A stretch of 64,000 bases of DNA from Candidatus Aminicenantota bacterium (GTDB lineage: Bacteria; Acidobacteriota; Aminicenantia; Aminicenantales; Saccharicenantaceae), in contig JAPKZD010000001.1 of the NCBI GenBank assembly GCA_026393975.1, positions 1 to 64,000 of the forward strand. The letters run 5' to 3'. The notes beneath the pieces are model-generated. The model searched no databases. It was given only the letters and a program-made list of their open reading frames with translations, and had not been told where the DNA came from. This document shows, piece after piece, positions 27,788 to 49,100 of this stretch; positions within the stretch are counted from its first letter, which is position 1, and the number at the start of each line of letters is the position of its first letter. Made by a program: the position numbers and the translations under genes.

Positions 27788-28801
27788 TTATGCTTCCAGC
27801 CCGTATTTCTCGCGCAACCCATGGACAAGCCAAGCGAGCTCTTGATCCCCGGCCATAGCGGATATTACCTGCTGCCAAGTACAGGATTGAAGGAGCGATG
27901 GGTTTCTCAGTCCTTCTTTTACCTCGCGAAAGGCCCGCCAACCCTCGCAGCCTTCCTGGAATTGAGGATTCCGCTTATCATAGAGCAAAACCGCACGGCC
28001 ATCAGTTGCCACGGCCTCATCCTCGCCACCCGACTTGGGCCTCATGCAGGCGGCAAGCACGTTGCGCACTAACTGATATGTTTGGTTCAGTGGACAGGGG
28101 TCATGATCAACCAGGTAATCCCATTTGAAAAAGCTGGGTATAAATTCCCAATACTTCACGCCGATGTGCGTTAATGAACAGCGTTCCTTTCTATTCCGCT
28201 GCCGGACGTATCGACCATCACAGAATTCATCGTTATAATTCGGTGCGTCGCGGCGCAGTTTCGGCCGCGAACAGGGCCCAACCTCCGGCTCAGTCAGTTT
28301 ACATTCTACGGCAACTTGGTGTGCGCCCCTAATAAAAACGTCTATCTTGGTCTTTCTTGACGTCTCTCCCAAATATAGGATAGTTTTCTCCATTTCGAGG
28401 CTGTCGCCGGCAAGTTTGTCCGATGTGAACAGCGGATTCCCATCGTTTTCCAAAAGGCCTGATAAACAGCCCAACTTACCCAGGATTTTGAGATTCCCGA
28501 ACACGCTTTGAGCCAGGGCCTGCGAGCTCGTCATGCTCGTGAACCTTATATGCCACTCTCGTTTAGGAATAACGTTCCGGACTTGATTTATGCTCTCTAT
28601 CCCCAGTTTTTCATTGACGAGCACGTTCTCATGGCCATACTCACGCAAGAATACAGGCGGTCTTTCCGGATTATCGACATAGGTCTTTTCGAAGAGACAG
28701 TTTTTCTCGCGATAATGCGCCTTTTGAAAGGTCCAAAAGCATTGCACTAATTCCTCTTTATAGAGGCGCCATCTCTCTCTTACATCGATATTGGTTCCCA
28801 T
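27788..28801 (-). CDS. PD-(D/E)XK restriction-endonuclease-like protein (PGN_0703-type)
   Basis: A 337-residue protein with a strong RBS (AAGGAGG, 5 bases before ATG). The core TKIDVFIRGAHQVAVECKL carries the D...ExK signature of PD-(D/E)XK nucleases, and the region SSQALAQSVFGNLK before it fits a family I know as PGN_0703-type putative restriction endonucleases. Several cysteines and histidines follow. It is immediately downstream of the BREX operon in the same direction, 66 bases after the micro-ORF, so an accessory effector role in defence is plausible. The family name is from memory; the nuclease fold is better supported than the name. Confidence 0.65.
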   Translation of the reverse strand: MGTNIDVRERWRLYKEELVQCFWTFQKAHYREKNCLFEKTYVDNPERPPVFLREYGHENVLVNEKLGIESINQVRNVIPKREWHIRFTSMTSSQALAQSVFGNLKILGKLGCLSGLLENDGNPLFTSDKLAGDSLEMEKTILYLGETSRKTKIDVFIRGAHQVAVECKLTEPEVGPCSRPKLRRDAPNYNDEFCDGRYVRQRNRKERCSLTHIGVKYWEFIPSFFKWDYLVDHDPCPLNQTYQLVRNVLAACMRPKSGGEDEAVATDGRAVLLYDKRNPQFQEGCEGWRAFREVKEGLRNPSLLQSCTWQQVISAMAGDQELAWLVHGLREKYGLEA

Positions 28802-28867: not shown

Positions 28868-28978
28868 TTAGTATCTCCATAGAATTGGGAGGCCGTAAAT
28901 CTGAAGGGGTCCAATGTTGGGAATTTTGCCTTGGGAGCGAAGCTCTCTAATATAACAATCGAGCGTCTTCATTCTCAT
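28868..28978 (-). CDS. 36-residue micro-ORF coupled to brxA
   Basis: A 36-codon frame begins at ATG 28978, overlapping the brxA stop in ATGA exactly as the other junctions of this operon do, and ends at TAA 28868. It reads MRMKTLDCYIRELRSQGKIP then PNIGPLQIYGLPILWRY and has no family that I recognise. It could be a real coupled microprotein or a remnant of a longer BrxA C-terminus. Confidence 0.35.
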   Translation of the reverse strand: MRMKTLDCYIRELRSQGKIPNIGPLQIYGLPILWRY

Positions 28979-29775
28979 TGTCGCTTGTCTTTTTCGAACA
29001 AAGCCTCCTGGGTCGCACTCCTCGCGGGTTTCCTCAGTATGGCCAGATCGTTATCCAACCCGTGACGGACAATGTCGAGTCTAGATGACCCAGCCCTAAG
29101 GCTTTCGGCGTGAATCGGTTTGATCCAGAACGGGAAGAAGTTGGGGCTATCGATCAGATCCTTCAGCGGGGCTGAGCCGTTGGCGCGGGTGTGGAGGGAT
29201 GCTTCGGCTAGCCATACGATCAGTTGGGAATCATCGAGGGCCAGTGTTTTGCCGGCGGTATAGATTCCCTTTGTGCCGGTCTCCTGGAGCACGCCCCAGT
29301 CCAGGTACGAACGCAGCACGCGGCGGGCTGCTCGGGAAACGGTCTCCCGCTCACCGTATTGCTCGCGGACCCGGCGCTGGACATGAGCCGCGGCAGCGGA
29401 ACCCTGAAGCCTCAGAAGACGGCCGGTCTGAGTGGCTACACCCGACCAGAACGGGTAGACGGCCATGACCATCCCCCAGTGGATGGCCAGATGATCGCGT
29501 CGAGGAACACGCTTGAGGAGTTCCAAGCCTTCGATTCGCAAGGACTCAAGCTCGCTCGGAACCGTCAGCCATGTCTTGAGGAGAATCGTGATGATCTTCT
29601 CGCGATTGCCGCGTTCAGCCAGGACGCCTACGGACACCTTATCCTTTAGCAGCTCCTGCAAGGCATTGTTGACCGCAGCCTTGTCATTCCCTGCCAGGAT
29701 CAGGTTGGCCGTCTGCTCAAGCCATTCCAGACGCACCCGCTGACTGAATCCGATCTGGTCGGTCCGTCTGGTCAT
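28975..29775 (-). CDS. brxA: BREX-3 BrxA (DUF1819-like)
   Basis: A 266-residue protein placed last in the canonical type 3 order, directly after pglZ (ATGA overlap at 29772-29775). BrxA proteins are NusB-like, helix-rich and bind nucleic acid; the sequence fits, with long amphipathic helices (GFSQRVRLEWLEQTANLI, LESLRIEGLELLKRVPR, VSRAARRVLRSYLDWGVL). The assignment rests on position and fold style more than on a sharp motif. In BREX, BrxA is needed for defence in E. coli type 1 systems. Confidence 0.8.
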   Translation of the reverse strand: MTRRTDQIGFSQRVRLEWLEQTANLILAGNDKAAVNNALQELLKDKVSVGVLAERGNREKIITILLKTWLTVPSELESLRIEGLELLKRVPRRDHLAIHWGMVMAVYPFWSGVATQTGRLLRLQGSAAAAHVQRRVREQYGERETVSRAARRVLRSYLDWGVLQETGTKGIYTAGKTLALDDSQLIVWLAEASLHTRANGSAPLKDLIDSPNFFPFWIKPIHAESLRAGSSRLDIVRHGLDNDLAILRKPARSATQEALFEKDKRQ

Positions 29776-31778
29776 TCCCTCCTCCTCTCGATCTGGACCA
29801 GAGGGACGATGAGTTCCTCGACTGAAATGCCGCCGTGGCTCACGGTGTGCTGCTTTTCTTGGACAAACGCCTGCCGAGCAGGAGCCAGGAGAGCGAGGTA
29901 GTCCTCCGGGAGGCCAACGGGGTCCCATTCCATCGCGGCCGGGAAGCGCTCCTTCACCTTGCCACGAAGGGCTGCGTCGGGATAGACGCGGACCCGTTCA
30001 CCGCGCAGGTCCGCCACGGCTCCTTCCGCCGGACGGCCGCAGCCTGCCGCTTCGATATTGCCGTGGTCGGAGGTGAGGTAGACGCGGAATCCCCGATCCA
30101 AGAGCAGATCGAGGAGCGTGTTCAGGTAGGGTTGCTGGGCCCACTGGCGCACCTGGTTCTGCATGCCTGCGGTGCCCAGCTCCATGCCGTGCATAATCTT
30201 GTCGACCTTATCGACAACCAGGCCGGCAACTCTCACTTTGGGATGTGAAAGCGCTTCGGAAAAGATTTCCAGGGTACCGTCGCCCAGACCCTTGGCGTAA
30301 ATGACCTCGTTAGGCGTGAACCCCTGATCCGCCCAGAATTGCGCCCATAGTGCAGGTTCCTTGTCCGTGGTCTGAATACTGTTTGGAAAAAAGATTGGAG
30401 CCTTGCCGGCGAATGTGGCCTGGCGCGAAACGGATGTGAGTGAAGGAATCCAAGCGAAGACAGCCTGCTCCCGGAATCGGAAGCCGGGCTGCCTTAAGGC
30501 GAGCGCGCTACGGACCACCAGCCACTGGTCCATGGCAAGACCATCCACCACGATTAGTGCGATCTTCGCGTCACGGTCTTCTCCCATCTGACGGGCAAGA
30601 AACCGCGGGAGGTGATGCAGCATGACCGGAGGCACTGGCGGCAGGTTGACAAGCCCGGCGTACCGCTTGAAGAGCCAGGCAGCGAAACCGGCGTCCATCT
30701 GTGCCTGCAAGCTCTTGATGCGTTCGCCCGTCTGTTCGGGAATAGCTTCGGCCTGATCGATCGCCAGCAGGATTAGCTCCGCCCATCCACGGGCAAAGCG
30801 GAACCAGTCCGTGTGCTTTGCGTCATCGGCGGGAATGAATATCTCCAGGCTGTCGATGAGCTTGCCCAAGCGACGAGACCTGTCCTCGATTGGGGCGGTT
30901 CGAACGCCAATGCCTACCCAGGTTTTAGACAGGGTGTTTGCATGATCGTGTGATACGGAATGCAGCAAACCCTCGACGAACAGGTTGTCGATATAGACCC
31001 GGATGTCATGGTGGTCGAATGGGAGATCGACGGGTCCCTCAATAGTCAGACCGTATGGTTTCCCGCCTTCCCGAACACCAGGCTCCCCTTTTGCTGCCTC
31101 ACGATCGAGGAAGATCATCCAGCGCTCCTGGAGGAATGCGAAGAAACTCTCCCGGTCCGAAATAAGCGTCTCAAGCGGCCAGTCGTCGAAGATGTTGCTT
31201 TGACGCAGGAGTTGGATGAACCGCTCGTCCAGCATAGTCGGGATGCGCTGGCTGCGGTAGTGACGGCGCAGAAGCACCCGCAACAGATCCGATGGCTGTT
31301 TAATCAGCTCCGGCGCGATTTCAAAGACGTGTCTGAGGACGAATTCCTTAGTGGCGTTGTCGCCCAACTGGCCGGGAGCGTACCGCCGCTGGGCCTCATA
31401 CAAGGCATCGAGGTCCCCGCGGTCCAGGGCGGTCACGACCGAGTAGCTGAGGTTCGGGAAGATATCTCCAAGACTGAAGGAGAGCTTGCGGCCCGCCTGA
31501 AGGAGATCATAGGGCAACCCACTGAGGTCGCTGGCTTGGGAGCGCAATACGACGACGAGGTCTGTGTGCTCGCCCCGGTCCCAGCGGGAGCGGAACTTCG
31601 ATTCGTAGGCGTAGCGAAAAGAGATGGGGTCATCGAAGGGGATTAATTCGAATCCCCGTTCATGGATGCCTTCGAGAATGCCTTCCTCAAGAAGGAGTCC
31701 ATCCGGGTCAGCGACTAGAGTAAGTCGTGCAACCTTCGGGGTGAACTCCGTCAGGATTTGATCGCGCCAAGAACTCAA
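29772..31778 (-). CDS. pglZ: BREX-3 alkaline-phosphatase-like PglZ
   Basis: A 668-residue PglZ. The alkaline-phosphatase-type core shows LIVVDGLAMDQW with TSVSRQATFAGKAP (metal/nucleophile region), TSDHGNIEA and the late HTVSHGGISVEELIVPL. PglZ is the hallmark protein of every BREX type; E. coli PglZ is a metal-dependent phosphodiesterase in vitro. Its start overlaps the glycosylase stop in ATGA and its stop overlaps brxA in the same way. Length matches type 3 PglZ. Confidence 0.93.
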   Translation of the reverse strand: MSSWRDQILTEFTPKVARLTLVADPDGLLLEEGILEGIHERGFELIPFDDPISFRYAYESKFRSRWDRGEHTDLVVVLRSQASDLSGLPYDLLQAGRKLSFSLGDIFPNLSYSVVTALDRGDLDALYEAQRRYAPGQLGDNATKEFVLRHVFEIAPELIKQPSDLLRVLLRRHYRSQRIPTMLDERFIQLLRQSNIFDDWPLETLISDRESFFAFLQERWMIFLDREAAKGEPGVREGGKPYGLTIEGPVDLPFDHHDIRVYIDNLFVEGLLHSVSHDHANTLSKTWVGIGVRTAPIEDRSRRLGKLIDSLEIFIPADDAKHTDWFRFARGWAELILLAIDQAEAIPEQTGERIKSLQAQMDAGFAAWLFKRYAGLVNLPPVPPVMLHHLPRFLARQMGEDRDAKIALIVVDGLAMDQWLVVRSALALRQPGFRFREQAVFAWIPSLTSVSRQATFAGKAPIFFPNSIQTTDKEPALWAQFWADQGFTPNEVIYAKGLGDGTLEIFSEALSHPKVRVAGLVVDKVDKIMHGMELGTAGMQNQVRQWAQQPYLNTLLDLLLDRGFRVYLTSDHGNIEAAGCGRPAEGAVADLRGERVRVYPDAALRGKVKERFPAAMEWDPVGLPEDYLALLAPARQAFVQEKQHTVSHGGISVEELIVPLVQIERRRE

Positions 31779-32557
31779 GACGCATCTCCTACATTTTTAT
31801 GGGCGCAAAGGTTCGAAAAACGACACCGAACACAGGCTGGTTGCAATGGTCTGCATACTTCGCGTCCGAGCTCCCAGAGAACAAGATCGAAGATACCAGG
31901 ATACTCCGGGTGAAGCTCTCGCGCCCGAAAGATCAAATAATCGACCGAGGCATTCTTGGGAACAAACCCCATTCGGGAAAATACTCGTGTGATTTGAACA
32001 TCCACGGATATGTCGATGGAGTATCTATCGCTGACGGCGACACGAAAATCTCTCACAAGGATGTTGGCTGCCATAGAAGCGATCTTCTGACCTACACCCC
32101 GGAACTCGAGAAAACGGCGCACGATCGTGGCGCTCGAGGGTTTGCCGGTCCAAATTGCTGCAGCGTTGCCACAAAATTCATTCCTTATACGATGCACTGC
32201 AAAGAGAATGTTCTTTGACATTTCATTCGGAAAGCGGTGTATAGGCGTCGGTTGAAGCATGGCCTCGTTAAGCTTTTCCGGCGAAATTTCTGCAAGCCTA
32301 GCCAAATTCGCGAAATCGAAAAAGCCGAGGCGCAGCCTCAATTCATAAGGTATCCGCCATGCCTTCTCAGCCCTTATCTGGCGATCCATGATGCATGCAA
32401 CAACAAATGCATGAGGATGAAGGTCGATATCGTTTAGCAGGTCGTCAGCCTCTTTCTCACCGGTGAATTTCACACGGGCACGCGGCGTGCTGAGCCTGTC
32501 ATACCCTTCTTGAACCAATTGGTCACGAAGACTGCTCACCCTCTCCAGCTTCAGCAT
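31775..32557 (-). CDS. EndoIII-like HhH-GPD DNA glycosylase with Fe-S loop, inside BREX operon
   Basis: A 260-residue helix-hairpin-helix glycosylase. The HhH and catalytic lysine are FRGVGQKIAS (K158), the catalytic aspartate is in ISVDVQITRVFSRMG (D186), equivalent to K120 and D138 of endonuclease III but about 10 residues further apart. Four cysteines at 235, 242, 245 and 251 give C-x6-C-x2-C-x5-C, identical in spacing to the EndoIII [4Fe-4S] loop. Bifunctional base removal and strand nicking is therefore likely. It is not a housekeeping Nth: the N-terminal 100 residues are different and it is coupled at both ends (7-base overlap with brxHII, ATGA with pglZ). A role in attacking modified phage DNA is inferred. 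Confidence 0.85.
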   Translation of the reverse strand: MLKLERVSSLRDQLVQEGYDRLSTPRARVKFTGEKEADDLLNDIDLHPHAFVVACIMDRQIRAEKAWRIPYELRLRLGFFDFANLARLAEISPEKLNEAMLQPTPIHRFPNEMSKNILFAVHRIRNEFCGNAAAIWTGKPSSATIVRRFLEFRGVGQKIASMAANILVRDFRVAVSDRYSIDISVDVQITRVFSRMGFVPKNASVDYLIFRARELHPEYPGIFDLVLWELGREVCRPLQPACVRCRFSNLCAHKNVGDAS

Positions 32558-35321
32558 GCGCTACCCTCTACTCGAATCACAAGCAGGGGCACCATTTCCG
32601 GATAGGCATGGGCTTTCTGGTCAAGCTGCTCCTGGAAACTCCGCTCCTCCTGCGCGAGGAGGTTCAGGCGATAGTTTCGGACTTGGGGCAGGCCGATCCG
32701 CTCGACGGTCTTGCGGCGAGCGGCAAAGGCGTAGTTGGCCTTCTCGCGCTCACGTGCGATGCGGACCCGGTGCTCTTGCACGAGCGCCTCGTAGATAGGC
32801 TTCCCATGTTCTTCCGCGGCGTTCTGCAGCTTTGCGAAGATGGATTGGGAGACCTCGGCGTCAAGAATGGACAGGATCTTTGTGCTTGCTGCGAGGAGTT
32901 GGTCCCACACGTGTCTGGCCGTCGGCATGTAGATCATGCCGTTGTCGGCCAGGAAGAGAGGCATGATCCTTCGACGGTTCCACTCCATGGTGGCAATCGA
33001 GATTCGCCACAAGGACCAGACGCCCTGGACTTCCTCGGAGAGACCTGGGATCGACACGATGGAGACCGGCTGGCCCGGCGCAAAGCGAGGAAGACGCATG
33101 GCCAGACCACGGACCTTCGGATCTTCCAGGGTCAGGTGCCGGGCGGCCGGAAGCCTCTCGGCTTCTTTGCCCGTAAAGACCACGTTCTCGTAGGTTTCGC
33201 CGTCGGGCCAAGTGAGGTTCCAGCCCTGGCTTTTCCTCTCGGCATGGCCGCCATGCGCTGTCAGGTAGCTCACGGTCATGCGCTCGACCCAATGGGGCAA
33301 GGGATGGGTTAGCAGCCGCTGGGCTTCGCCAGGCTCCAGGTCCTCGGTCGCGCCGAGCACGGATGCGGTCGCGCGCGCCTCGCGGGCCTGCTCCTGCACT
33401 CGGGCAACCACGCTCTCCACGGAGTCCTCCACCTTTTCGGGGTTGAGAATCGCTTCGACATACATTTTGTCGAACATCCGTCCGGCCTGGGCAGAGTCGA
33501 GGACGTCACCGGTCTTGTCGATGCCGAACTCCTCGAAGATGACGGCGAGCTTCTGCTCCAATACCTCCCGGACCCGGTGCTCGACCGATCCCTCAAAGAC
33601 AAAGTTGACCGCGCGAACCGCATGGGCCTGGCCGATACGATCCACCCGGCCGATCCGCTGTTCGAGACGCATCGGATTCCAGGGGATGTCGTAGTTGATC
33701 ACCACGTGGCAGAACTGGAGGTTCAAGCCCTCTCCGCCCGCTTCGGTGGAGATGAGAATGCGGGCATCCTTGGCGAATGCCTCCTGGACTCGCTTGCGCT
33801 CTTCCATGTCCATGGAGCCGTTCAGGCAGACGACCGAGAACCCCCGCTCAATCAGGAATCGCCGCAGCATCTCCTGGGTGGGCACGAACTCGGTGAACAC
33901 CAACGCCTTGAGCTCCGGGTCACTCTCTTCAGATTGGAGGCGATATAGCCAGTCGAGTAGCGCCTCGGCCTTGGCGTCCGGGCCCGCCTGCTCGCAACGG
34001 GCCGCGGCCTCCAACAGCAACTTCACCTCGGCGCGCTCGTTCTTGAGCGCCTTGAGGCGGGTGCGAAGCAGCATGTCGATCTGCTCCTGGCCATCCAGGT
34101 CTGCCCATTCCTCCTCGGAGGTGAGCGGGAAAAGAGTCAGTTGCTCTTGGGGTGCGGTGAGCGCTTCGAGCCGCCTTTCGAGCGTGGTGCGGATGGCGCT
34201 CGTGCTGGAGACTACCAAGCGCTGCATCAGGATCATCAGAAAGCCGATGTAGCTCCTCTTCTCCCGCATGGCCTGGTTGTAGCCTTCGCGCTAAGCTGCG
34301 TGCGCCGGGGTTTGAACAGCGGTTTGCCATCGGCATCGATGGCGTGGCGCTTCTCGGTGCGGATCACATGCGGCTGGACCCGCTCGCGGGTGACGCTGCC
34401 GATGTCCGGGAACGCCTGAGCGTCGATCAGGGACACCAGCCGGTAAAAGGCGTCGGTCTTGCCCTGGTGCGGGGTGGCTGAAAGCAGCAGGAAATATGGC
34501 GCGGCCTCGGAGAGTCCCTGACCCAGTTTAAAGCGAGCCACCTGGTCGGTGCTGCCGCCAAGGCGGTGCGCTTCATCGACAATGACCAGGTCCCAGCCGG
34601 CGGAGATCAGATCCTCGAACCGTTCGCGGTTGTGCTCGCCCACCTGGGCCGCGGTCCATCCACGGCGCTTGTCCAGGGGCTTGACCGAATCCATCGGCAC
34701 AACCACCTGTGAGAACATTTGCCAGGCGTTGGCGGGGAGAACCTCCGGGTCATGATTGTCCTTCTCGCCGTTTCCCGGACCCGTTGCCGGGGCGATCCGT
34801 TTCAATGTCTTGATGTCCTCGGGGAGCACGAGCTGGAAGGTCTCACCGAAGTGAAAGCGCATCTCGCTGACCCACTGGCTCACCAGTCCCTTCGGGGCGA
34901 TGACCAGTGTCCGTTTGACCAGCCCGCGGAGCTTGAGCTCCCGCATGATGAGACCGGCCTCAATGGTCTTGCCCAAGCCAACCTCGTCCGCCAGGAGATA
35001 GCGCACCCGGTCGTTGGCGATGGCGCGGGATAGAGCACGGATCTGGTGCGGCAGCGGGATGACGGAGGACTCAATGGGCGCGAACAGGACGTCCTGGGTC
35101 AGGGCGTCGGCCACCCGCACGGCAGCAGCGACGTAGGCGATATCGTCCGGCGAGCCGGTGCCCGCGCTCTCCAGGGACTTAAGCCTGGAAGCCGGGATGC
35201 GGACCACGGAGTCGCGGCCGGGCAGCCAGACGCGGCAGGTCGTCTCACCCCAGAGCGTCTGGACTTCGATAACCTTGCAGACGCTGTTATGGATGGTACT
35301 ATATCGCCAGAACGATTCCAT
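32551..35321 (-). pseudogene. brxHII: BREX-3 SNF2-type helicase BrxHII, split by frameshift/deletion
   Basis: Two overlapping frames together make one BrxHII (DrmD-like) helicase. The first (35321-34236) has lobe 1: DEVGLGKTIEAGL, DEAHRLGG and LLLSATPHQGK. The second (34269-32551) has lobe 2: LVFTEFVPTQEML, ILISTEAGGEGLNLQ and RIGRVDRIGQ. Lobe 1 runs normally to FKPRRTQL, then reads a frame-shifted tail of about 17 residues. The correct frame resumes at EGYNQAMREKRSYIGFL. The family normally has a longer linker here, so a small deletion, roughly 20-30 residues by my estimate, has probably occurred. All helicase motifs survive, and the second frame has an ATG at 34269, so a two-piece protein is conceivable. 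A sequencing or assembly error is also possible. Confidence 0.82.
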
Positions 35322-35328
35322 CTCCTAT

Positions 35329-37932
35329 TTACCCTCTACCACGATCTGTTGCTTGCTGAATCTGGATCGCAGGCGCAATGCGAATTCTAATCTCATCGTA
35401 AATAGCAATATCAACGCCTTCGCTGACTTCCAATGAAACTGCTATACCATAGGCAATCGGATTCAGAATTTTGCCAGCATCTTTACGGCAATTCACCTTG
35501 ATCTCGATGACATCCCCATCACTGAACGGTTCGGCTCTTTGGCCTTCAAAAATCTCATGTTGTACGGTACCCCGTCTTACTGCACGCCATCCATCATTTC
35601 CGCTACAACTTTCTTTTCTTTCTTTAGCTAGGGATATGCCACCAACTTCGAACCACAAACTCGCGATTCGATATTTCTGGGTAGTGGCAGCAACTGGTGA
35701 AAGCCAAGCCAAAGTGACAGTCAAACGTCTCCATTCCGGACGCGAGCCAAGTGATGGCGGCAATGGCAATCGGAAAACGTGGGCTTCACCATCCGAGAGC
35801 TGTCCAAAACCCAGCAGGGTTGCCCGTTGGTTAGTACAATCCAGGACGCGATCTACCTGCGGCATGCCATAGCCCATCCACCGACATATTAGCCCACTGA
35901 GTTGGCTGCCATTTTCTGGCGTGCGAAGCACCTCTGAAATCCGAGTGCCGATATCGCCCCAGGAGCAGCCATGCACCAGTATCGCCTTTAGTAGCGGAAC
36001 TTCATAAGTTCGCGGGTCTATTTCGGCCGCCTGCTCGTTGAAAATTTGCTGCAGCGAGTCGTAGCAAATCCCCGCAGCACGGCTGATTAACGCCGTGGCG
36101 TTGCTTGTGCCGCAACTATAGGAAGTTGCCATTAACTCACCAGCAAGACTGCCTGGCGAGGCAACCTTATTCCCAGGCGTAGTCCGAAAGATGGCTGGCT
36201 CGATGGTAATCAGCTCCGCTGGCCGCAACGGAAGCCGATACCATTGTTTGCCTCCGTTGAATACCATATCGGGTTTTACTGCACGGCGATAACCGCTTCC
36301 GAAGGCGGATACTGGGCTTGGCAGAATTTGCTCAAAGGGATCAAATCTGGTTCCTGGGTGAGCCACTTGAGATGCGTCATGATGGACGGCACCGACTGTT
36401 AGACCATTGATAGATTCCGCAGGAGAGAGCAACTTTCTATGTCGGGCGTCTCGATAGAGTGCTTTGATAGTTGCGGCCTCTAATTCGCTGGGCTGCAAGG
36501 AATCAAATTCATCGCGGGAAATACCCAATGAAACGGAGGTTGCATGATTCCCCGCGCTGACGACAAATAAAACGCCATACTTGACGCTCAGCCAGTCAAG
36601 CAACCTGGCGATAGGACTCATAGAACGAGTGAATTGCCTGCTTTGATCACCGATGGACAAATTAATGACCTTGGCTTGCGGGGCAATTGGGTCATCGCCT
36701 TGGTCGCCCTCGAATATCCTTCTAACAGCCCTATGAATAAGATCTACAGCAAGACAATCTTCTGGAACTCTTTCTGGACGAGGCATATTTGGCCAAGGAG
36801 TTGGTTTCATAATTGGCCGAACATAGATGGGTCTGGCAAGCGGAGCTGTTCCCTCATTGAGGTCGCCGTGAATAATGAGGGACGCCATGGATGTCCCATG
36901 GACACGTTCTGAGGCGGTGTAATCATCTGCTTCCCAGTTCTCGGGGTCATCGATTTGAACTCGTCCAGCCAACAATCGGTGGTTGGCCAAGGGCACTCCG
37001 TCCAGAAGCGCGATGGCCGGGTCACCGTCAGGTAAAGGCATTTCTTCAATCGCAGCGACTTCTACCTCGCCTTCCTGCGGCCTGTCGCCCACAACCATTT
37101 GGCCAACAGGCCTGAAAAACCAGACGTTTTCACACTTGGCTAGCTCGGTTGTGGGGTTCTCAACGATAGAGCGGATAGCGTTGGCCGGTAACTCGACCAA
37201 TAGGCCATGATAGGCGATGCCTTCGATAATGGATTGGCTCAGAATGCGGCCACCAAGTTGCCGCACGAGATCCGTGACTTGACCAGCGCTGGATTGCCGA
37301 CTCTCTGCACTTCCCCGGAACCAGAGTTCTGCTTCAAATGGGATGACTCTACTCTCGTCATACTCAAGATTCTCACGCCAGATCTCGATCAAGCCAGTTT
37401 CCAAAAGCCTATCTTGGACGTCCCATCGACGTATACTTTTGAGATGAAGAAACACATCTCTAAATTTGGCCAAACCATGTTCAAACTGCATGTCTTGATT
37501 GGCTTGATAACGTCGCCACAAAGATAGCATCTCATCAAGCGCCCGTTGATTGGTCATGACGAGGTATAGGCGTCCGTTCAATTCCTTCTCGGGATTTGAT
37601 TCATCGTAGAAATCTTGATCGGGAGCGATTTCGTCGCTCTCTAGCTCGCCCATCCATTCAAGACCCTCGATGAGTTTTACCGCATTGGCAAAATTCTCGA
37701 CACTGCCAACCGTCTCGATGACGAGTACTTGTTCAGGATCGCCGCCAGCCGTATTTTGCTGTATCTCGACGCGGTGGGCATTAAATGCCGCTTGAAGCTG
37801 GTTGAACATCGGCGAAAGCCGAGCGCCTTGCCTTGCAAGATCGGGCTTATGAACACGGCCGAATTGCGGCCGTTGTTTTGTTCGATCAGCCGCTACTGGA
37901 GTTGGGAAAAGCAGTAATGGGTGTTCAGGCAT
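35329..37932 (-). CDS. ietS: IetS-like S8 subtilisin protease of an AAA/subtilisin defence pair
   Basis: An 867-residue subtilase with the full catalytic set: D311 (IALLDGV), H345 (VHGTSMAS), oxyanion N462 (SAGNHAT) and S610 (CGTSNATAL). About 300 residues precede the protease domain and 200 beta-rich residues follow it. No signal peptide is present, so it acts in the cytoplasm. It overlaps the AAA ATPase gene by 8 bases. The pair matches IetAS, known as a plasmid stability toxin-antitoxin on Agrobacterium Ti plasmids and later shown to protect against phage. Here it sits between pglXI and brxHII. Confidence 0.88.
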   Translation of the reverse strand: MPEHPLLLFPTPVAADRTKQRPQFGRVHKPDLARQGARLSPMFNQLQAAFNAHRVEIQQNTAGGDPEQVLVIETVGSVENFANAVKLIEGLEWMGELESDEIAPDQDFYDESNPEKELNGRLYLVMTNQRALDEMLSLWRRYQANQDMQFEHGLAKFRDVFLHLKSIRRWDVQDRLLETGLIEIWRENLEYDESRVIPFEAELWFRGSAESRQSSAGQVTDLVRQLGGRILSQSIIEGIAYHGLLVELPANAIRSIVENPTTELAKCENVWFFRPVGQMVVGDRPQEGEVEVAAIEEMPLPDGDPAIALLDGVPLANHRLLAGRVQIDDPENWEADDYTASERVHGTSMASLIIHGDLNEGTAPLARPIYVRPIMKPTPWPNMPRPERVPEDCLAVDLIHRAVRRIFEGDQGDDPIAPQAKVINLSIGDQSRQFTRSMSPIARLLDWLSVKYGVLFVVSAGNHATSVSLGISRDEFDSLQPSELEAATIKALYRDARHRKLLSPAESINGLTVGAVHHDASQVAHPGTRFDPFEQILPSPVSAFGSGYRRAVKPDMVFNGGKQWYRLPLRPAELITIEPAIFRTTPGNKVASPGSLAGELMATSYSCGTSNATALISRAAGICYDSLQQIFNEQAAEIDPRTYEVPLLKAILVHGCSWGDIGTRISEVLRTPENGSQLSGLICRWMGYGMPQVDRVLDCTNQRATLLGFGQLSDGEAHVFRLPLPPSLGSRPEWRRLTVTLAWLSPVAATTQKYRIASLWFEVGGISLAKERKESCSGNDGWRAVRRGTVQHEIFEGQRAEPFSDGDVIEIKVNCRKDAGKILNPIAYGIAVSLEVSEGVDIAIYDEIRIRIAPAIQIQQATDRGRG

Positions 37933-38929
37933 CTTTCACCTCCGGCTCATCTTGTTGTGCTACTTTTACTGATCTGGCAGACCATTGCTGGAGGGTTTTG
38001 GATACAATATCCTTCATGTTAGCGTCCGGTTGGCCCAATACATACTGCCGAAATATTGTGGTACCGAATTCTTCGACTTCAGCAAAACTGGAGCCCAATA
38101 GCCGCTTGGCCAGATTGCCGCGAGCGTACTCCAGAGGAATGTTGATCCGGCGTTCGAATTTCTCAAACCACTCGGCTATTCGGGCACGAGTTGGGCCGGG
38201 CAGATTCATGCGGACCTGGAACCGACGCCATACTGCGCGATCTAGCAGTTCAGCGTGGTTGGTCGCACCGATCACCATGACATGGCTTGGCAGATTATCG
38301 ATCTGCATCAGCAATGAGCTGACCACTCGCTTAATCTCGCCGGTCTCGTGAAGGTCGCCACGCTCTTTACCGAGAGTTTCAAACTCATCGAAAAAGAGAA
38401 CACATTTCCTGGTAGAGGCAAACTCAAACAGCTTTTTCAGGCGCAGAGCTGTTTCTCCCAGGTAGGTGCCGACTACGCTTTCATATCGGACCACGAGAAG
38501 CGGCACCACGAGTGCCTCTGCTATCGCTTCGGCAAGGGACGTTTTGCCATTGCCGGGCGGGCCGATAAGCAGGAGACGGTTGCGGGGCTCCAGGTTATAG
38601 GCCCTGAGGAGATCCATTCGGTGGTGTTCCTGAACCAAGCTCTGGCAGATCTGCTGCACTTCCTCGGGCAGGATCAGCTGCGATAATTTTCGCTGCGGTA
38701 TGATCTCGTGAAACAGGGTACCCATACGCTGGTCGAGCATTGGCCCACCATTGGTGGCAAGACGTTCTACAGGGGCTGCGTTTAATAATTCTTCCAACTT
38801 TTCGGCCAGCACTTTGTGCTGCTTGCATCGTTCTTCGGCAATAATTGCCTCAACGACCTTTCTGAATGTGGCCTTGTCGCACCGTATTCCAGATTGGACA
38901 AGGCTAACTAATAGGTCCGCTCTTGCCAT
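37925..38929 (-). CDS. ietA: IetA-like AAA+ ATPase, partner of subtilisin
   Basis: A 334-residue AAA+ ATPase. I start at ATG 38929 because GGAGG lies 8 bases upstream inside pglXI and the start overlaps the pglXI stop (TAATG). Walker A is GPPGNGKT (123-130), Walker B VLFFDEF (177-183), sensor 1 GATNHAELLD, and arginine finger region RAVWRRFQVRMN. The domain is of the FtsH/spastin-like classic clade. In IetAS the ATPase is thought to restrain or activate the protease. The tight coupling to pglXI shows the pair is translated as part of the BREX message. Confidence 0.9.
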   Translation of the reverse strand: MARADLLVSLVQSGIRCDKATFRKVVEAIIAEERCKQHKVLAEKLEELLNAAPVERLATNGGPMLDQRMGTLFHEIIPQRKLSQLILPEEVQQICQSLVQEHHRMDLLRAYNLEPRNRLLLIGPPGNGKTSLAEAIAEALVVPLLVVRYESVVGTYLGETALRLKKLFEFASTRKCVLFFDEFETLGKERGDLHETGEIKRVVSSLLMQIDNLPSHVMVIGATNHAELLDRAVWRRFQVRMNLPGPTRARIAEWFEKFERRINIPLEYARGNLAKRLLGSSFAEVEEFGTTIFRQYVLGQPDANMKDIVSKTLQQWSARSVKVAQQDEPEVKDA

Positions 38930-41754
38930 TATTCGCCTCCTATTCGTGTTACTGCTTGATCGTACCACATGAGGAGCTTCGGGTCCTCCTGGAGGACGTT
39001 TTCGGGAATCTTATGGGCCACGGTGATGATTGTGGCGTAGTCGCGCTCCTGCCACGCCTTCTTGAACCCGGCGCGGACGGCCTCAAGACGAAACACCTTC
39101 AGGCGCTTCTGGCTGGACGTTCGGTATTCCTCGAACTCTTTGAGCAGCGACCTTTCGCGCAGCTTCTCCAGGTCGCCGGCCTTGTTCGGGTCGGGCACGT
39201 ACCAGCGATCCTTGCCCTTGGCTCGGAGGCTTTCATCGTTCTTGGGCAGGTTGCGCAATTCCTTGAAGTTGGTAGACAGGTAGCTGTGAATCTGGTTCGG
39301 CACCTCGCCCTTGCCGTCGTAACGCAGAAAGTTCTGTTCGAACAGTTCATCGAGTTCAAGTAGCTTCTCGGTTTTCTGCCATCCTCCGATTTCCTGCATG
39401 AACTGAGGCTTTAGCTCACCTGCCGTTTGGGGCTTTCTCAGTAGCTGCTGTCGAAGCCACTGGATAGCCGAGGACTCGTCGGTGACGAAAAGCTGGAGCT
39501 GCAGTACCTCGCGCACCTTCATGCGCTTCTTGTCGTACTCGGGCACCTGCTCGGGGAGGAAGTACATCCCATCCCGCTCGGAGAACCTCTGGGCAAGTCC
39601 GGCATAGAACTCAGCCGCGGACAGAGGAACGGTTACGCCGCGCTGGACATGGAAAGCCACCATGCGGTCGAAGAGCAGATAGTTCTGACGTTCGGCGATA
39701 AGCTCGGCTTGCTCGTCCTTGAAGACGAAGACAGGGAGTTGCTTCAGATGCGTGCGGCTGAAGTCCCAAACACCTTCTTCACTCCCGGCTATCAATCTGA
39801 AACGATCCTCAAGGCCACCGTTGGGTTTATAGGCAGAGATCACGAGATCTTGGTCGACTGCACCTGACCTGTTGACCGCGTTGAAGGACCGCTGTTGCTT
39901 GTCAAGGACGTGCACGTCTGCGATAACCAACCCAGATGATTCAACGGCTTGCTGTATTGCGCTCCAAACCGCATTCTGGCTGTTGTGGAACTCGATGGTT
40001 ATCCATCGCCCGGGTTTCAGTAGTCTGGCATACTCCTTGAACGCTCCAAACATCATGTGCGAGTAAAATGACAAATCTTTCTTGTGCACATAATTCAGAA
40101 CGCAATCTTTCTCAACAACGGTTCTTACTTTTAACCAAGCTTCGACAAACATGTTCAGCTCGGCATACTGGAGCGACTCTCCAAATGGTGGGTCAGTGAA
40201 GATATAGTCAACTGTCTCGCTGGGGATATTCCGCAGATTAATGATGCTTTGAGTCGAGACATAACCTGGCTCGTCTTCTTCCACTGCAAGTGACCGGAGC
40301 TTCTTGAGCTTGCGCCTCAGAACGTCGAAGACGTTTCTCTCAAGGTGAAGCGACGGCGTAAAGAGGGTACCGGTCACCCCACCACCCCCGCCGAAGTGGC
40401 CTTGCTTCCTGGATATGTAGTTGTTGATGGCACTCAAGCAGAATCTAAATAGCGAAGTGCGTTTATGTGATGAAAGCCGCTGTTGCCACAAGTAGCCGTA
40501 TGCGAATAGTGCCCTCTGCGTGTACATATGGCAAATGTGTGAGATGCCCGAGCCGTTAATGAGTTTGTTAGTTTGCCGCCCCGGAAAAAACTCGTCCGTA
40601 GGAATATGAGGCCAGGAGCGTCCCTCAAAGCGAGAAACTAAAATTTTCCTTCCTTCGTCCTTGATGATTTTCGTCTTGCGGGTCGATCCGGTTTTAGTCG
40701 TTTCCTCTACGAGAACAAGCTTCGGTACTCGTACCACCTTATTCAGAATCGGATCGAATGCTGCAGCGAATGGACGTTCGAGCTTGACGGCACCAGTTGT
40801 CTTGGAGGCAGCCTTGCCAACAGTTGTCCCACAATGTGGGCAAGGAAATGACTCTTGCATTGTTCCATCTTTGAGCGCTGCTTCCCAAAAAACAAATTCA
40901 TGGCTGCAATTTGGACATAGGAATAAGTCTGACCAAACTGCGCTCAAAACCTGACCACCAAAAACACCCTCATAAAGCCAACCAAGTTCCTTCTCAACCT
41001 TAGAAACGAGCTTCAGAGCCTCTTCTGTGAATGTCACGAGGGAAGAAAAGTCAGCATAATTGCTTGCAATAAAGGTGGCGACGGGAGACAAGTCCGATAA
41101 GATTGCCCGGCGTCCTCCGACACGCGATACGCGATTATTCTTGGAATCCAGAATCGTCCCATCGGTGCTGACCTGATAACCCATAGACGCCACGGCCTGT
41201 TTGCTCCCACATAGCCGAGCGGCCACTCCCGTCATCCCCGTCCCGCAGAACCCGTCAAAGACCACATCCCCCGGTTCGGTGTAATGGAGGATGTACCGCA
41301 TGATAGCCTTATGCGGCACCTTGGTGTGGTAGGAGTGGGCGTTGTAGATCGGATCGTTCTTGCCTTCGCTTACATCCGCGGCGAATGGCTCGCGGCTATA
41401 CGGCGTGCTCGGGTCGTAGGGCTTGCTGTAATGCCTGATGAAGTCAGCGATGAATGGGTTCGGGCAGGCGGTGTAATAAGGCGGGTCGGACAGCGCCAGA
41501 ATGTCCTCATCCGAGCCTATAGGGAATCCCTCGATCTTGCGGAACTCCGGGTCTTTTAGCTTCTCGCGCAGCATCTCCAGGAAGTGCTTCCGCCGCTCCT
41601 CGTCATTCGAGAAGGTCATGCCGAGACAGGTGACAGGACCGGAAGCGGCCTCATAGATCACATCAAACAGTCTGTCTGAGTCTGGGGCGGCGGGTACAAC
41701 TGCCTCCTTGAAGAGTCGTTCACTGCTTTCTTTGGGCTTAGTGCGTTTCTTCAT
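38929..41754 (-). CDS. pglXI: BREX-3 adenine-specific DNA methyltransferase PglXI
   Basis: A 941-residue methyltransferase. SAM-binding motif FDGFCGTGMTG begins near 166 and the catalytic motif TDPPFGES is near the middle, with another DPPY at 90-93. Two zinc-knuckle pairs (CPNC and CPHC) lie between the two halves of the domain, as in DUF1156-like enzymes. In type 3 BREX this enzyme marks host DNA at a non-palindromic site. It starts 5 bases after brxC, with GGAG upstream, and its TAA overlaps the ietA ATG by one base. The length is typical. Confidence 0.92.
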   Translation of the reverse strand: MKKRTKPKESSERLFKEAVVPAAPDSDRLFDVIYEAASGPVTCLGMTFSNDEERRKHFLEMLREKLKDPEFRKIEGFPIGSDEDILALSDPPYYTACPNPFIADFIRHYSKPYDPSTPYSREPFAADVSEGKNDPIYNAHSYHTKVPHKAIMRYILHYTEPGDVVFDGFCGTGMTGVAARLCGSKQAVASMGYQVSTDGTILDSKNNRVSRVGGRRAILSDLSPVATFIASNYADFSSLVTFTEEALKLVSKVEKELGWLYEGVFGGQVLSAVWSDLFLCPNCSHEFVFWEAALKDGTMQESFPCPHCGTTVGKAASKTTGAVKLERPFAAAFDPILNKVVRVPKLVLVEETTKTGSTRKTKIIKDEGRKILVSRFEGRSWPHIPTDEFFPGRQTNKLINGSGISHICHMYTQRALFAYGYLWQQRLSSHKRTSLFRFCLSAINNYISRKQGHFGGGGGVTGTLFTPSLHLERNVFDVLRRKLKKLRSLAVEEDEPGYVSTQSIINLRNIPSETVDYIFTDPPFGESLQYAELNMFVEAWLKVRTVVEKDCVLNYVHKKDLSFYSHMMFGAFKEYARLLKPGRWITIEFHNSQNAVWSAIQQAVESSGLVIADVHVLDKQQRSFNAVNRSGAVDQDLVISAYKPNGGLEDRFRLIAGSEEGVWDFSRTHLKQLPVFVFKDEQAELIAERQNYLLFDRMVAFHVQRGVTVPLSAAEFYAGLAQRFSERDGMYFLPEQVPEYDKKRMKVREVLQLQLFVTDESSAIQWLRQQLLRKPQTAGELKPQFMQEIGGWQKTEKLLELDELFEQNFLRYDGKGEVPNQIHSYLSTNFKELRNLPKNDESLRAKGKDRWYVPDPNKAGDLEKLRERSLLKEFEEYRTSSQKRLKVFRLEAVRAGFKKAWQERDYATIITVAHKIPENVLQEDPKLLMWYDQAVTRIGGE

Positions 41755-41759
41755 CTCAA

Positions 41760-44700
41760 TTACTCCACTACGATGCGCACCTTGCCCAGTTCCTTACCCT
41801 TAGTGAGCTGGTCCAGGTATTCCTCGAACCGCTTTCTCATCTCGGCCGAAGTGGCCGGTGAGCCGCCCGCAAGCAGGGCATCGCGCAGGTCCGCGATCTT
41901 GACCAAGACCTTGGTGAGCCCGGAGAGCACCTCCTGCAGGGCGTGGATGAAGGCCTGGTCCAGATCGTCCGGTAGGGCCCGCTTCTTGATGAACCCGTCC
42001 ACCAGCTTGCGCGGCTCGGACTTGAGCAGGCTCAGGTTACCCTTGGTGGTTGGGTCTTCGAGGTTGGCGAGCAGCGTCTGTGTCCAGTTTTCGACCAGCT
42101 TATCGAGCTCGCCGTCCAAGGCGTCGAGCATCGTCGCCGCGGGAGCCGTGGGCGGTTCCGCGCCCGGTTTGAAGTTGCAGTGCGGGCAGACCGGCGATGC
42201 TTCCAATTCCTGCTCGGTGAGCGCAAAGCAGCTCTTCAATCCCGCGAGCCGGTTCTGGAAGTCCGAGAGGTGCTGGCGCGGCATCAGGTCGATGGTGGAG
42301 AGCTTCTGCATATCCTTGAGCCGCTCGTCGCCCATGAGCTGGGCCTTGCGCTTGTCCTCGTTCACGCCAAGGCGCGCCTTGGCGTGCAGGGAGAGGTAGG
42401 CCAGCAGGTATGCCTTTTTGAGATCGCCGAGCTTGCGCTGGGTCTGCTGGCGGAAGATAGCCGCGCTCCGCTTAGCAGGGTCGCCGATCTGGGCGAGGAC
42501 CTCGTCCCGGACCGTCTTCATCTTGTCGATCCACTCGTGGCCGGTTGGCAGGACCGCCTCAGCGGTGGAGAGGTACGATGCCGTGGACCCGAGGTCGGCC
42601 ACCAGCTCCTCGAGCGACTTGATCTCGGCCAAAGAATCGAGCCCGTCCCGATGGGCGATCACTTCCGAGGCGTCGTAGCGGAAGTTCTTGAGCTTGCCGG
42701 TCGTCGTATAGGCTTGCAGGGATTCAAGGAAGGTCTTGGTCCCGTCCAGTTTGGCGCGCAGCTTCTTGACTTCTTCTTCAGCCAGCAGGCTGCGGCCCCA
42801 AAAAAACAATCCGTTCTGCAGGTTCTGCTGAATGAGCACGAGCCGCTCCACGGCGTTGGTGACGGCCTTCTGCAACTCCTGAACCGGCTCGTCCTTGCCC
42901 TGGGTGACCAGTTGGGCCATGCCCGGCGTAAGGCCGAGCAGTTCGAAGAGCGCCTTGAGCGCTGGGAGATTCCAGTCCTTGGGCCGCTCGATGTGCTTGA
43001 ACTGGGCAAGCTCGTCGATGCCGGTCCCGGCCAGTTGTGGTAGACCCGTGGCGTCGAACTTCTTGCCCGGGATGGAAAGGACCACTTCGCCGGAATAGAC
43101 CAGCGCGGCCAGCACTACCACGGCCCATTCGGGTTCGAGCCGAAGGCGGTCCTTGTCCATGTACTCGATACCTTTGTCATCCTGGACCAGCTCGGAACGG
43201 TTGACCACCTGGCCGTGGCCCTTCTTCTTGGCGACGCCAAGGATATGCTTGGCATATTTCGACCGGTATGGATCGAGCCGCTCGCCGTCGAGCAGTTCCA
43301 GGGCGTCCAGCACTGCGGTGGCCTGCTTGGTGCGGTTCTGTCCGGCGATGGCGCGCAGGGCGTCCTGCGCGGCCTGGGCCCGGTTCGCTCCGGTGATAAG
43401 CACCGAGAAGAACGGGTATTCGGGAGCCTGGTCCTGGAATTTCGTCCCAAGACAGATGCCCGCGGTGGTGTTCACCAGGTCGCGGAAGTTGATGCGCTCG
43501 TGGGAGCCAATACCCGGAAGCTCGCGGATGGACTTGCCCTTGGCCCACTCGGTTAGGGACTTGGCGCGCCCCTGGTAGGTGACCTCAAAGGCCGTGGTCA
43601 TGTTCTTCTGCAGCCATTGCACGAGGTCGCGCAGGAAGTTCGATGCCTTGGATTCGTAGGTGGACTTGGCATGGCCCGAGGCGGTGGATGCAAGGTCCAG
43701 GGCCGCCGCGTAATTTCGAAGCGCGGTGCGGAACTCCTCGTCGGTGTTCGCCAGGCGCAGGAACAGCTCGTCGGGCTTCTTCTCGTCCTTGAAGTGCGGC
43801 ACGTCGAAGGGTTGGATGAAGTAGAGGTAGAAATCCCGTGGCGGCACCGCCGTGGAGCGTTCGTTGGGTGCACCGAAAAACAGGTATCCCTGGCGTGCGG
43901 CCTTGCGCTCCAGCCATTCGAGCTCGTGCTGCCAGATCTTGTAGCCCGTCATATAGGTCTGGTCGGTGCACTCCATGACCCTCCGGAGCGCTTCGTAGTA
44001 GTAACGGTCGAGCTGCGAGGAGTCGAGGCTTTCAGCCCGCTTCTCGATCAGGGCATCGAAGTCGTCGGTCTTCTTGAGGTCCAGGTAGTATTGGTGGTTA
44101 TCCGGGTTGGACGAGATGAACTGACCGCTCACCGTCTTGTGGATTTCCCGCAGGACGGTCTCCACCTGGGAGAGCAGATCGTCGGCGGGATCGCCGCCCA
44201 GTTCCTCGATGCCGGGTTGAAAGAGGCACAAGCCGTCCCGCAGTTCCTCCGCTGTCGCGCCCAGGGAGGCGTAGATGTCGCCCGTCGTGAGCCGGTGGAC
44301 CGATAGCGCATGGATGAGCTGGGTTGCCATCGGTTTGTATGCCGGACGGGTGAAGGCCTGCTGGATGCGCGACTCGAGCACCTGGCTGCAATCGATGACC
44401 GCCTTGATGTCCGGGACAGCGCGGAAGGACGGATTCTCGCGCAGGGTCGTCCAGTAGCCGTCATAGGCGATGACCCCGGGCCGGTCGTCGGGCACGTTCT
44501 GGCCGAGGAGCTTCTTCATGGCCAGGGAAAGGGTCTTGAGCACCTCGCGCTTTTCCACTGCGGTGACCCGTTCAAAGGTGTCGATATAGTCCGGATGCAC
44601 GGGAAAGAGGCGCACGAACTCGTCCATACGCTCGTTCATGCGGCCGTAGAACTTGGCGAAGGGAGTCAGGTACTCTCGTATTTTCACTTGCTGGTCGGCG

Positions 44701-45488
44701 GTCTTCTTGAGCAGACGCTCGGCCACCACGAACTTGACATCCTTTCGGGCGATGAGGATTTGCTCGAAACGGTCCTTTACCCGGCGGATACTGTCGGCCA
44801 CGAAGGAAAAACGAGGACTATCGAAAATGGCTTCCTGGACGCCGGCAATGAAGCGGAACCGCAGGTCCTTACAGACCTCGCCGATCTCGCGCAGGAAGTT
44901 AAGATCGAGGATCAGCTCCTGATCCTTGCGCGTGCGCAGGTAGTCGAGCAGCTCGTCCACCACCAGGAGCAGGCCGTGGTCGGGAAACTCCTGGTGGAAG
45001 GCGGTCATCATCTCTTCGAAGGCGCGCTTGTTGTTGGGCACCTTGTCCGCGGGCGGAAAGGAATAAGACACACCCATTGCGGCTAGGTGCTCCTCCAGTT
45101 CGGCCACGAGGATGTCGCGCAGGGACATGGTGGTCGCGCCGATTTCGGTCCTGACCACCTTGAAGCGGCCGCCGATCTTGTCCACAGCTTTCGCCACACT
45201 CTTATCGTTCAGATGGGTCGCGAGATCGCCGTTTTCAGCCAGGGCGGAGATCACGGACATGAGGTGCGACTTACCGGTGCCGTAGTTGCCGACGACCAGC
45301 AGCCCCCTGCTATCTATGGGCTGGTCGAACTGAAGCTGAGGAACAACCAGGTTTACCAGCTTCTCGGCCATCTCCTCGGAGATGACGTAGGTCTGGACAA
45401 GTTGCCGGGCAGCAGCGGCCTCGTCGGCATCCCGCAGTTGCACTACCGATTCGATAGGCTCGAATTGAATCAGGTCTCCGTATTTCAT
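41760..45488 (-). CDS. brxC: BREX-3 large ATPase BrxC (PglY/DUF6079-like)
   Basis: A 1,242-residue P-loop ATPase, the largest BREX protein. ATG 45488 is preferred over 45530 because GGAGG lies 9 bases upstream and the longer frame would overlap the brxF end. Walker A is [12 protein letters not shown] (residues 65-76) and Walker [13 protein letters not shown] near 170. The rest is mostly helical, with a putative zinc pair CPHC near 1,090. BrxC is thought to assemble with PglX and BrxB/BrxF-type partners on DNA; it is essential for BREX immunity. Confidence 0.92.
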
Positions 45489-45522
45489 CGCTACTGCCCT
45501 CCTACACTTTCGCTCCTTGTTT

Positions 45523-46005
45523 TCATGCAACGGCCTCCGGGCTCACTACCAGGAAATCTCGTATGGGATATCGTTTGTATTCGGTATGGCCCGGCGTCGC
45601 GTAAAGCAACTGCTTGTCGTCGATCGAGCCTCCCCACGCCGCGACCACCGTCTTGTTCCGTGAGAGCCCCTGCAGGAGTCGCAGAGGATCCTGTTTTAAC
45701 GAGACATCAAACAGAATTTCGATATTGTCCAAGAGAATCACTTCGGCTGCAGATGCGGATGCGTACACGATTTCTGCAAGGAGGCGGGGCAACTGCAACG
45801 CTCGCTGGCGCTCGGTAAGGTCGAGCATGCGCCGAGTGAGCTCGAGATTGACGTTAACCAGCGGAGCCGCCGTGCGCTCATGCACATCCTGGAGCGCGGC
45901 GGTCTTGCCCGCACCGGCTGGGGCCACCAGTATGACGAGACGATGGTATAGCTCGGCCGCTTGGCCGATTCTTCGAATAACTCCGTCGGAAAGTGGCTCC
46001 GCCAT
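45523..46005 (-). CDS. brxF: BREX-3 P-loop protein BrxF
   Basis: A 160-residue small ATPase, the type-3-specific BREX component. Walker A is [12 protein letters not shown] near 29-40 and Walker [13 protein letters not shown] near 90. The RBS AGGAGG lies about 10 bases upstream of the ATG, and the gene is 34 bases before brxC. Its presence together with pglXI and brxHII is what assigns the system to type 3. Confidence 0.92.
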
Positions 46006-47755: not shown

Positions 47756-47769
47756 AAGCATTTACCTCG

Positions 47770-48050: not shown

Positions 48051-49100
48051 ATGAAAAAGCGTTCTAAAGAGACAGAAACCGACCTCTTGAGGAAAGCCAT
48101 ATCGGCCTTCAACGAGCTTTTCTCCGGCCAGGGGGAACTCGAGATCTCCACACCTGATCCGCCTCCTCTGCCAGGAAGGCTGGCGCCTGACGTCCTAGTA
48201 CGGCTCAGAGCAGGAAAACGAGAGATTCTGTATCACGCGGAGCTGAAGCCGGTTTTTTCTCATTCCGTCAGGTTATATCTTTTGACGAAAAAAGCGTCCA
48301 CGAATCGTCCTTTCCTTGTGATCACTCAATACATGAACCCGGAGATGGCCGATCAAATGCGACGTGACGGTCTCGAATTCATCGATACGGCAGGCAACGC
48401 GTTCATTCGGCAGGGACAGTTGCATATCTTCGCCAAGGGGAATAGACCGCCGAAGAGGTTTCACCTTCCTCCGCCCCGTCTTTTCGCGTCCGCGGGCCTC
48501 AGAACGATCTTTTCTTTCTTGACCCGGCCCGACCTTGTCAAAGGGACTTACCGGGAAATCGCGGCGGCCAGCGGCGTGGCCCTCGGCACTGTCGCCGGGA
48601 AAATGGAGGAGCTGAAGGACCGTCTCTTCCTGACCGAAGATCGCAAGGGTACTCGCCGGCTTATTCGGAAGAAAGATCTTTTCGACGGCTGGGTCGCCGC
48701 CTACCCCGAACAGCTGCGACCACGGATACTTATGGGAAGATATCAGGGCGACCATGACTGGTGGCATGACAAAGTCCTTCAGCCGGCTTGGGCCCAATGG
48801 GGAGGCGAGGTCGCGGCATCCCGTATCACTAGCTATTTGTATCCCCAGGCAATAACCGTTTATTTGGCGGGTTCACGGCTCAATGAATTCCTCTTGGAGA
48901 ATAGACTCCGTATGGAAAAGAACAGCAATATCGAAATTCTGGAAAGATTTTGGACCGTAGACCCTCGCCTGGATGAGATCGAGACCGTCCATCCCCTCCT
49001 GATCTATGCCGACCTAGTCGCTTCGGGAAGTGATCGGAATATCGAAACGGCTAAAATCATCTATGAACAACACATCTCTCGATATCTCAGGGAAGATTGA
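48051..49100 (+). CDS. abiEi: AbiEi-family type IV antitoxin
   Basis: A 349-residue antitoxin. A region with DVLVRLRAGKREILYHAELK and FLVITQYMNPEMADQMRRDG leads to the mid-protein winged helix (TYREIAAASGVALGTVAGKM) and a C-terminal domain typical of AbiEi (LMGRYQGDHDWW, ITVYLAGSRLNEFL, VHPLLIYADLVAS). AbiEi represses the operon and counters AbiEii without stable contact, hence type IV. It overlaps the toxin gene by 38 bases and is preceded by the nested palindrome. Confidence 0.85.
   Translation: MKKRSKETETDLLRKAISAFNELFSGQGELEISTPDPPPLPGRLAPDVLVRLRAGKREILYHAELKPVFSHSVRLYLLTKKASTNRPFLVITQYMNPEMADQMRRDGLEFIDTAGNAFIRQGQLHIFAKGNRPPKRFHLPPPRLFASAGLRTIFSFLTRPDLVKGTYREIAAASGVALGTVAGKMEELKDRLFLTEDRKGTRRLIRKKDLFDGWVAAYPEQLRPRILMGRYQGDHDWWHDKVLQPAWAQWGGEVAASRITSYLYPQAITVYLAGSRLNEFLLENRLRMEKNSNIEILERFWTVDPRLDEIETVHPLLIYADLVASGSDRNIETAKIIYEQHISRYLRED

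Follow-up and report, generated by a model that had tools for sequence, protein, structure and literature searches.

A glycosylase gene between helicase and pglZ

The DNA considered here is a stretch of 64,000 nucleotides from a Candidatus Aminicenantota bacterium (contig JAPKZD010000001.1, positions 1 to 64,000; the whole stretch is called the window below), and the gene in question encodes a predicted iron-sulfur (Fe-S) DNA glycosylase of the helix-hairpin-helix (HhH)-GPD superfamily that lies within a type 3 bacteriophage exclusion (BREX) operon. In reading order this operon encodes BrxF, BrxC (DUF6079), PglXI, IetA, IetS, an SNF2-type helicase in two open reading frames (ORFs), the glycosylase, PglZ of the BREX-3 type and BrxA. 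The glycosylase ORF runs on the minus strand from an ATG at 32557 to a TGA at 31777-31775; the helicase stop overlaps this ATG by 7 nt, and the TGA overlaps the TTG start of PglZ by 4 nt. Coupling at both ends within a BREX operon had been claimed by a first-pass annotation made from the sequence alone, and both overlaps are indeed present. The gene sits between core genes, on the same strand and with overlapping ends, which is the arrangement of an embedded auxiliary BREX effector.

31775..32557, minus strand: HhH-GPD Fe-S DNA glycosylase, 260 amino acids, with HhH G154-x-G156 and K158, D186, and [4Fe-4S] loop C235-C242-C245-C251
31778..32563, no strand assigned: insert of about 786 bp, the glycosylase gene alone, missing from sister operon L106

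The PglZ of genome G282, from another family of the same phylum, is 89% identical. In its operon (L106) the ends of helicase and pglZ overlap directly, stop on start, with no glycosylase gene between them; L106 1-743 aligns to window positions 33306-32564 (89.6%) and L106 753-3510 to window positions 31777-29035 (84.8%), so the insert consists of the glycosylase gene and a few bases. Helicase and pglZ also overlap directly in three alphaproteobacterial plasmid BREX-3 operons, which makes insertion a simpler explanation than loss. Read from these alignments, the glycosylase gene is a clean one-gene cassette captured into the helicase-pglZ slot. A core function in type 3 BREX was considered and set aside, the gene not being found in the other same-phylum or plasmid BREX-3 operons examined. 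Its GC content is 50% (52% at third codon positions, GC3), the corresponding GC and GC3 values being 62% and 80% for the helicase part and 59% and 70% for pglZ.

The same slot is used by other genes in other BREX-3 operons of the phylum. At L107 (genome G078) a PD-(D/E)XK_3 gene lies between helicase and pglZ, and in four operons with no recognized helicase pglZ is preceded by a PHP-ATPase with a Ppl match (L109), by SIR2 and HerA (L110), by Schlafen/AlbA_2 (L111) or by a HEC-02A/AriA-like AAA protein (L112). These varied occupants indicate that the position takes up defence and nuclease genes.

The operon was identified as type 3 BREX on the core gene set defined in a 2026 survey (PMC12839542): BrxF, BrxC, PglXI, SNF2 helicase, PglZ-3 and BrxA are all present, with the helicase gene frameshifted. 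It carries IetAS and the glycosylase as its two cargo modules. PADLOC recognized the glycosylase itself by none of its models.

28975..29928, minus strand: BrxA; the ORF start extends upstream, and the BrxA match begins at residue 52
29772..31778, minus strand: PglZ, BREX-3 type, with TTG start and 4-nt overlap with the glycosylase stop
32551..34269, minus strand: BREX helicase, C-terminal part, SNF2/RapA-type, BrxHII-like; the PADLOC model is labelled BrxHI
34236..35321, minus strand: BREX helicase, N-terminal part, separated from the rest by a deletion of 67 nt in comparison with the L107 helicase, which is intact
35329..37932, minus strand: IetS subtilase, second cargo module
37925..38968, minus strand: IetA AAA ATPase, second cargo module
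38929..41754, minus strand: PglXI DNA methyltransferase (N6/N4 family)
41760..45530, minus strand: BrxC/PglY (DUF6079)
45523..46005, minus strand: BrxF

The presence of IetA-IetS inside the operon and the splitting of the helicase gene by a deletion with frameshift go beyond the first-pass annotation. The position of IetA-IetS (35329-38968), after PglXI and before the helicase, is one that the pair does not occupy in the plasmid operons L152-L154. Defence-like genes also flank the operon (27788-28801, 46448-47761 and 48051-49100), encoding REase-ARP, an AAA_14/DUF4143 protein (PDC-S01) and an AbiEi-type antitoxin.

Predicted fold and family of the glycosylase

The catalytic residues proposed in the first-pass annotation, Lys158 and Asp186, are present, as is the cluster loop C235-x6-C242-x2-C245-x5-C251. 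In a profile search of the Protein Data Bank with alignment to solved Nth and MutY structures, D186 aligns with the catalytic Asp, and the four cysteines align with those of the cluster. Family models describe the protein in part: PF00730 scored 25.8 bits, borderline to its cut-off of 26.2, and 26.6, above the cut-off, in a genome search; TIGR03252 (NCBIfam) covers residues 30-169 at 77.5 bits, under its cut-off of 136.5; and the C-terminal part gives weak NCBIfam matches to MutY and to a DR2438-type model. Structure prediction, which had been suggested as a check, was performed with AlphaFold2 on an input of 69 sequences and returned a confident model (predicted local distance difference test, pLDDT, 96.6; predicted template modelling score, pTM, 0.91). 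Foldseek matched this model to MUTYH, Nth, Deinococcus radiodurans EndoIII and the thymine glycosylase MIG, with template modelling (TM) scores of 0.5-0.62 by query and up to 0.68 by target. Among the structural matches listed, those with E < 0.001 are HhH-GPD enzymes; weak matches to the helical domains of 5-hydroxymethyldeoxyuridine (5-hmdU) kinases were also seen. The protein thus combines an HhH G-x-G/K motif with a downstream catalytic Asp and an all-helical fold, as in the HhH-GPD superfamily.

A profile scan of GTDB contigs gave 99 relatives, of which 80 were kept; they are spread over many phyla and also archaea, and five relatives come from viral contigs. K158 and D186 are invariant in all 85 aligned members, as are H107, W136, S142, N165 and D224, together with G154 and G156. 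The cluster cysteines are kept in 83-84 of 84 sequences, with a spacing of 6-2-5 in 77 of the 85 members, 7-2-5 in two and the pattern unmatched in six. The distance from Lys to Asp is 27 residues in 85/85, compared with 18 in the Nth of the same genome (counted on the sequence) and 17 in Escherichia coli Nth (K120-D138). The extra 10 residues remarked on in the first-pass annotation are therefore a trait of the family.

The N-terminal half of the family resembles TIGR03252, and in a FastTree phylogeny the two are joined with support of 0.995; their split from one another is moderately supported (0.86) in a tree that holds only four TIGR03252-type sequences. The Nth (0.99) and MutY (0.997) clades both stand apart from the family, and the organism's own Nth is placed among the Nth sequences of its genus. 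Grouping with this housekeeping Nth had been named at the outset as an outcome that would overturn an antiviral reading; the tree shows separate clades. The genome encodes Nth (at L003) and MutY elsewhere, and the nth model matched in 21/21 genomes searched (this one and 20 relatives), above cut-off in 20. Three established identities were rejected for the window protein: an Nth orthologue, since it gave no TIGR01083 match among the NCBIfam results and falls outside the Nth clade; MutY, with a TIGR01084 score of 19.3 against 286.5 bits and a separate clade; and a TIGR03252 member, to which it is only sister. A literature search on TIGR03252 returned nothing. On a Rhizobium plasmid (L151 2240-3528) the gene immediately after that for a dTMP kinase is TIGR03252-like and has a radical SAM gene nearby, a possible nucleotide modification cluster.

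The glycosylase is sporadic in its distribution. It is carried by 4/396 genomes of the phylum and 3/142 of the class (this genome counted in each), and by none of the 12 other genomes of the genus searched. A profile search of 2.9 million viral contigs yielded five matches only, and no relative was found by single-sequence scans of viral sets or by tblastn of 50,697 phage genomes.

Possible roles and the surroundings of relatives

We propose that the glycosylase is an accessory, probably bifunctional base-excision effector with an antiviral role that was recruited to BREX, a reading to which we would give about an even chance. It is built on what is observed of the gene, its residues and predicted fold, its insertion, its overlapping ends and the use of the slot by other defence genes; the insertion and this use of the slot are what argue for an antiviral role. 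The protein is presumed to be an active and probably bifunctional glycosylase, and phage DNA would be its target. It is presumably translated together with the BREX proteins and would act on incoming DNA by flipping out a base that differs from the normal host bases and cutting the glycosidic bond via D186. Hypermodified phage bases were put forward as the substrate in the first-pass annotation, but no feature of the sequence points to a particular base; because the catalytic Lys is kept, the abasic site left by base removal is predicted to be nicked next by Schiff-base beta-elimination via K158. Glucosylated T4 escapes E. coli BREX, according to work cited in PMC11078745, and base excision paired with BREX would close this gap in that an excision enzyme could catch such glucosylated phages.

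Several observations weigh against this proposal. Linkage to BREX is seen in this window alone among about 90 loci examined, so the family as a whole is not tied to BREX; the intact catalytic residues and the clean cassette in a defence slot do support the antiviral effector inferred in the first-pass annotation. The closest relatives (L011-L014, from Clostridia-like metagenome-assembled genomes (MAGs), 60-68% identity by segment) have ordinary surroundings. PADLOC models matched 73 times in the 130 nearest ORFs and 84 times in 130 ORFs 6-10 kb away and, with no excess near the gene, we do not claim a general enrichment in defence islands. The insertion is known from one genome, itself a MAG. 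Finally, the helicase gene is broken at 34236-34269, which may be real decay of the system or an error of the MAG or its assembly; in this state the operon may no longer act against phage.

The surroundings of other relatives are mixed. A glycosylase gene follows HsdR in Thioalkalivibrio XN8 (L040, 256 bp gap) and type III Res at L065 and L052 (gaps 30 and 57), and it precedes an HKD+SNF2-type, defence-type helicase gene at L077. Of two restriction models found beside relatives, one is moderately common among genomes of the phylum (23/99) and the other uncommon (1/99), a rough background only. Serine recombinases lie within 0-4.8 kb at six loci. On viral contigs the gene lies between those for terminase large subunit and portal (L093 1890-5787) or beside phage head genes recognized by eye (L091, L092), and on one phage contig (L095 7298-10693) it is on the strand opposite to its neighbors, near queC. 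DpdA-like and YhhQ-like ORFs were recognized on this last contig, by eye only, as a possible 7-deazaguanine DNA modification cluster. In two archaeal MAGs a DUF2779-type gene is paired with the glycosylase (L051 6464-8673, 4-nt overlap; L059 9971-12173, 1 bp apart). DUF6884 (YaaA-like) is fused to one family member and adjoins another (L027 1781-3073; L079 9863-11197). Interaction with abasic lesions has been reported for a DUF6884 protein (PMC11701544); the association fits abasic-site chemistry and also fits repair. Clustering of neighbors for a conserved operon partner gave small clusters only.

Somewhat doubtful, in our view, is that the protein is an ordinary accessory base-excision repair enzyme that moved horizontally and landed in the BREX operon, either as a neutral hitch-hiker or for a general repair benefit. 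Most relatives do stand alone beside unrelated genes, the near and far comparison shows no defence excess, DUF6884, fused to or next to members of the family, is regarded as a repair protein (PMC11701544), and the sister group TIGR03252 is annotated as base-excision repair. A repair enzyme fits less well with a precise insertion whose start and stop still overlap the core genes on either side, in a slot otherwise used by defence genes, with so sporadic a presence, unlike that of housekeeping repair, and with the recurring placement of relatives beside restriction nucleases and in phages.

We consider it improbable that the enzyme repairs self-inflicted damage, limiting the mutation or toxicity that would come from the host's own modification or from abortive BREX/PglZ action. 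A precedent exists beside 5-methylcytosine systems in Vsr and in Mig.Mth, an Fe-S HhH enzyme; the fold search matched MIG, an Fe-S HhH T:G glycosylase (1kea, TM 0.68 by target), and several relatives adjoin restriction-modification genes. MIG is, however, without the lyase Lys that this family keeps, and the other BREX-3 operons examined do not have the gene. The rationale of 5-methylcytosine deamination is moreover inapplicable because type 3 BREX, in the account of PMC12839542, methylates N6 of adenine.

Equally improbable is a mobile-element gene tied to DNA base modification, for superinfection exclusion or for policing the element's own modified DNA, that BREX picked up secondarily: the contig with queC and the DpdA-like and YhhQ-like ORFs, the placements beside terminase, portal and head genes and the weak 5-hmdU kinase matches speak for it, but queC is a single case and relatives are rare in the viral contigs and absent from the phage genomes searched.

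Comparison with known systems

The proposed BREX effector shares with Nth and MutY its fold, HhH, catalytic Asp and cluster spacing, and with Nth also the catalytic Lys. It differs in belonging to a separate clade, in a Lys-Asp distance greater by 9-10 residues, in a longer and divergent N-terminal part, in (near-)invariant L-H-R and I-W-x3-P-S-S motifs and, with respect to MutY, in having mostly Leu, Phe or Tyr at the position of Gln182 (register by eye). The N-terminal half with its HR and IW motifs is common to the family and to its sister clade TIGR03252, whose model is of unknown function, whereas the comparators of that clade are of about 190-215 amino acids and without the Fe-S tail.

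Backup nucleases embedded in BREX operons are described as common in the 2026 survey (PMC12839542), and like these auxiliary effectors (restriction endonuclease (REase), HNH, Schlafen, OLD-TOPRIM) the glycosylase gene is embedded between core genes, in a slot that they use elsewhere. It differs in kind, the main text of that survey naming nucleases and no glycosylase, and no HhH glycosylase within BREX was found in the literature searched. R.PabI also provides defence by base excision and AP (apurinic/apyrimidinic) lyase activity (PMC10273834), but it has the HALFPIPE fold, is sequence-specific and adjoins a cognate methyltransferase; the window protein gave no match to it in sequence or fold searches.

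The first-pass annotation had drawn a parallel with Brig1-type glycosylases. Like Brig1, Brig2 and Brig3, the protein is a DNA glycosylase accompanied by defence genes, and Brig1 homologues are often close to BREX/Pgl genes (PMC11078745). For Brig1-3, however, the literature gives membership of the uracil-DNA-glycosylase superfamily or homology to Brig1 (PMC11078745, PMC13160076), whereas the window protein has HhH-GPD structural matches, an Fe-S cluster loop and a lyase Lys. A Brig1-type assignment by fold was therefore rejected, and the parallel holds as one of function, not of descent.

More tentatively, and rather unlikely as it stands, this unnamed mobile family of Fe-S HhH-GPD glycosylase-lyases may be an antiviral weapon against a modified base common in phage DNA, recruited independently by BREX, by type I and type III restriction loci and by prophages. 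If this is true, Brig-type immunity would have evolved independently in a second fold, and the present case would be, within the literature searched, the first such glycosylase inside a BREX operon. Immunity by glycosylases is already known from the uracil-DNA-glycosylase fold of Brig1-3 and from PabI; if the present family is antiviral, HhH-GPD, which is among the commonest of repair folds, would have been turned to the same use.
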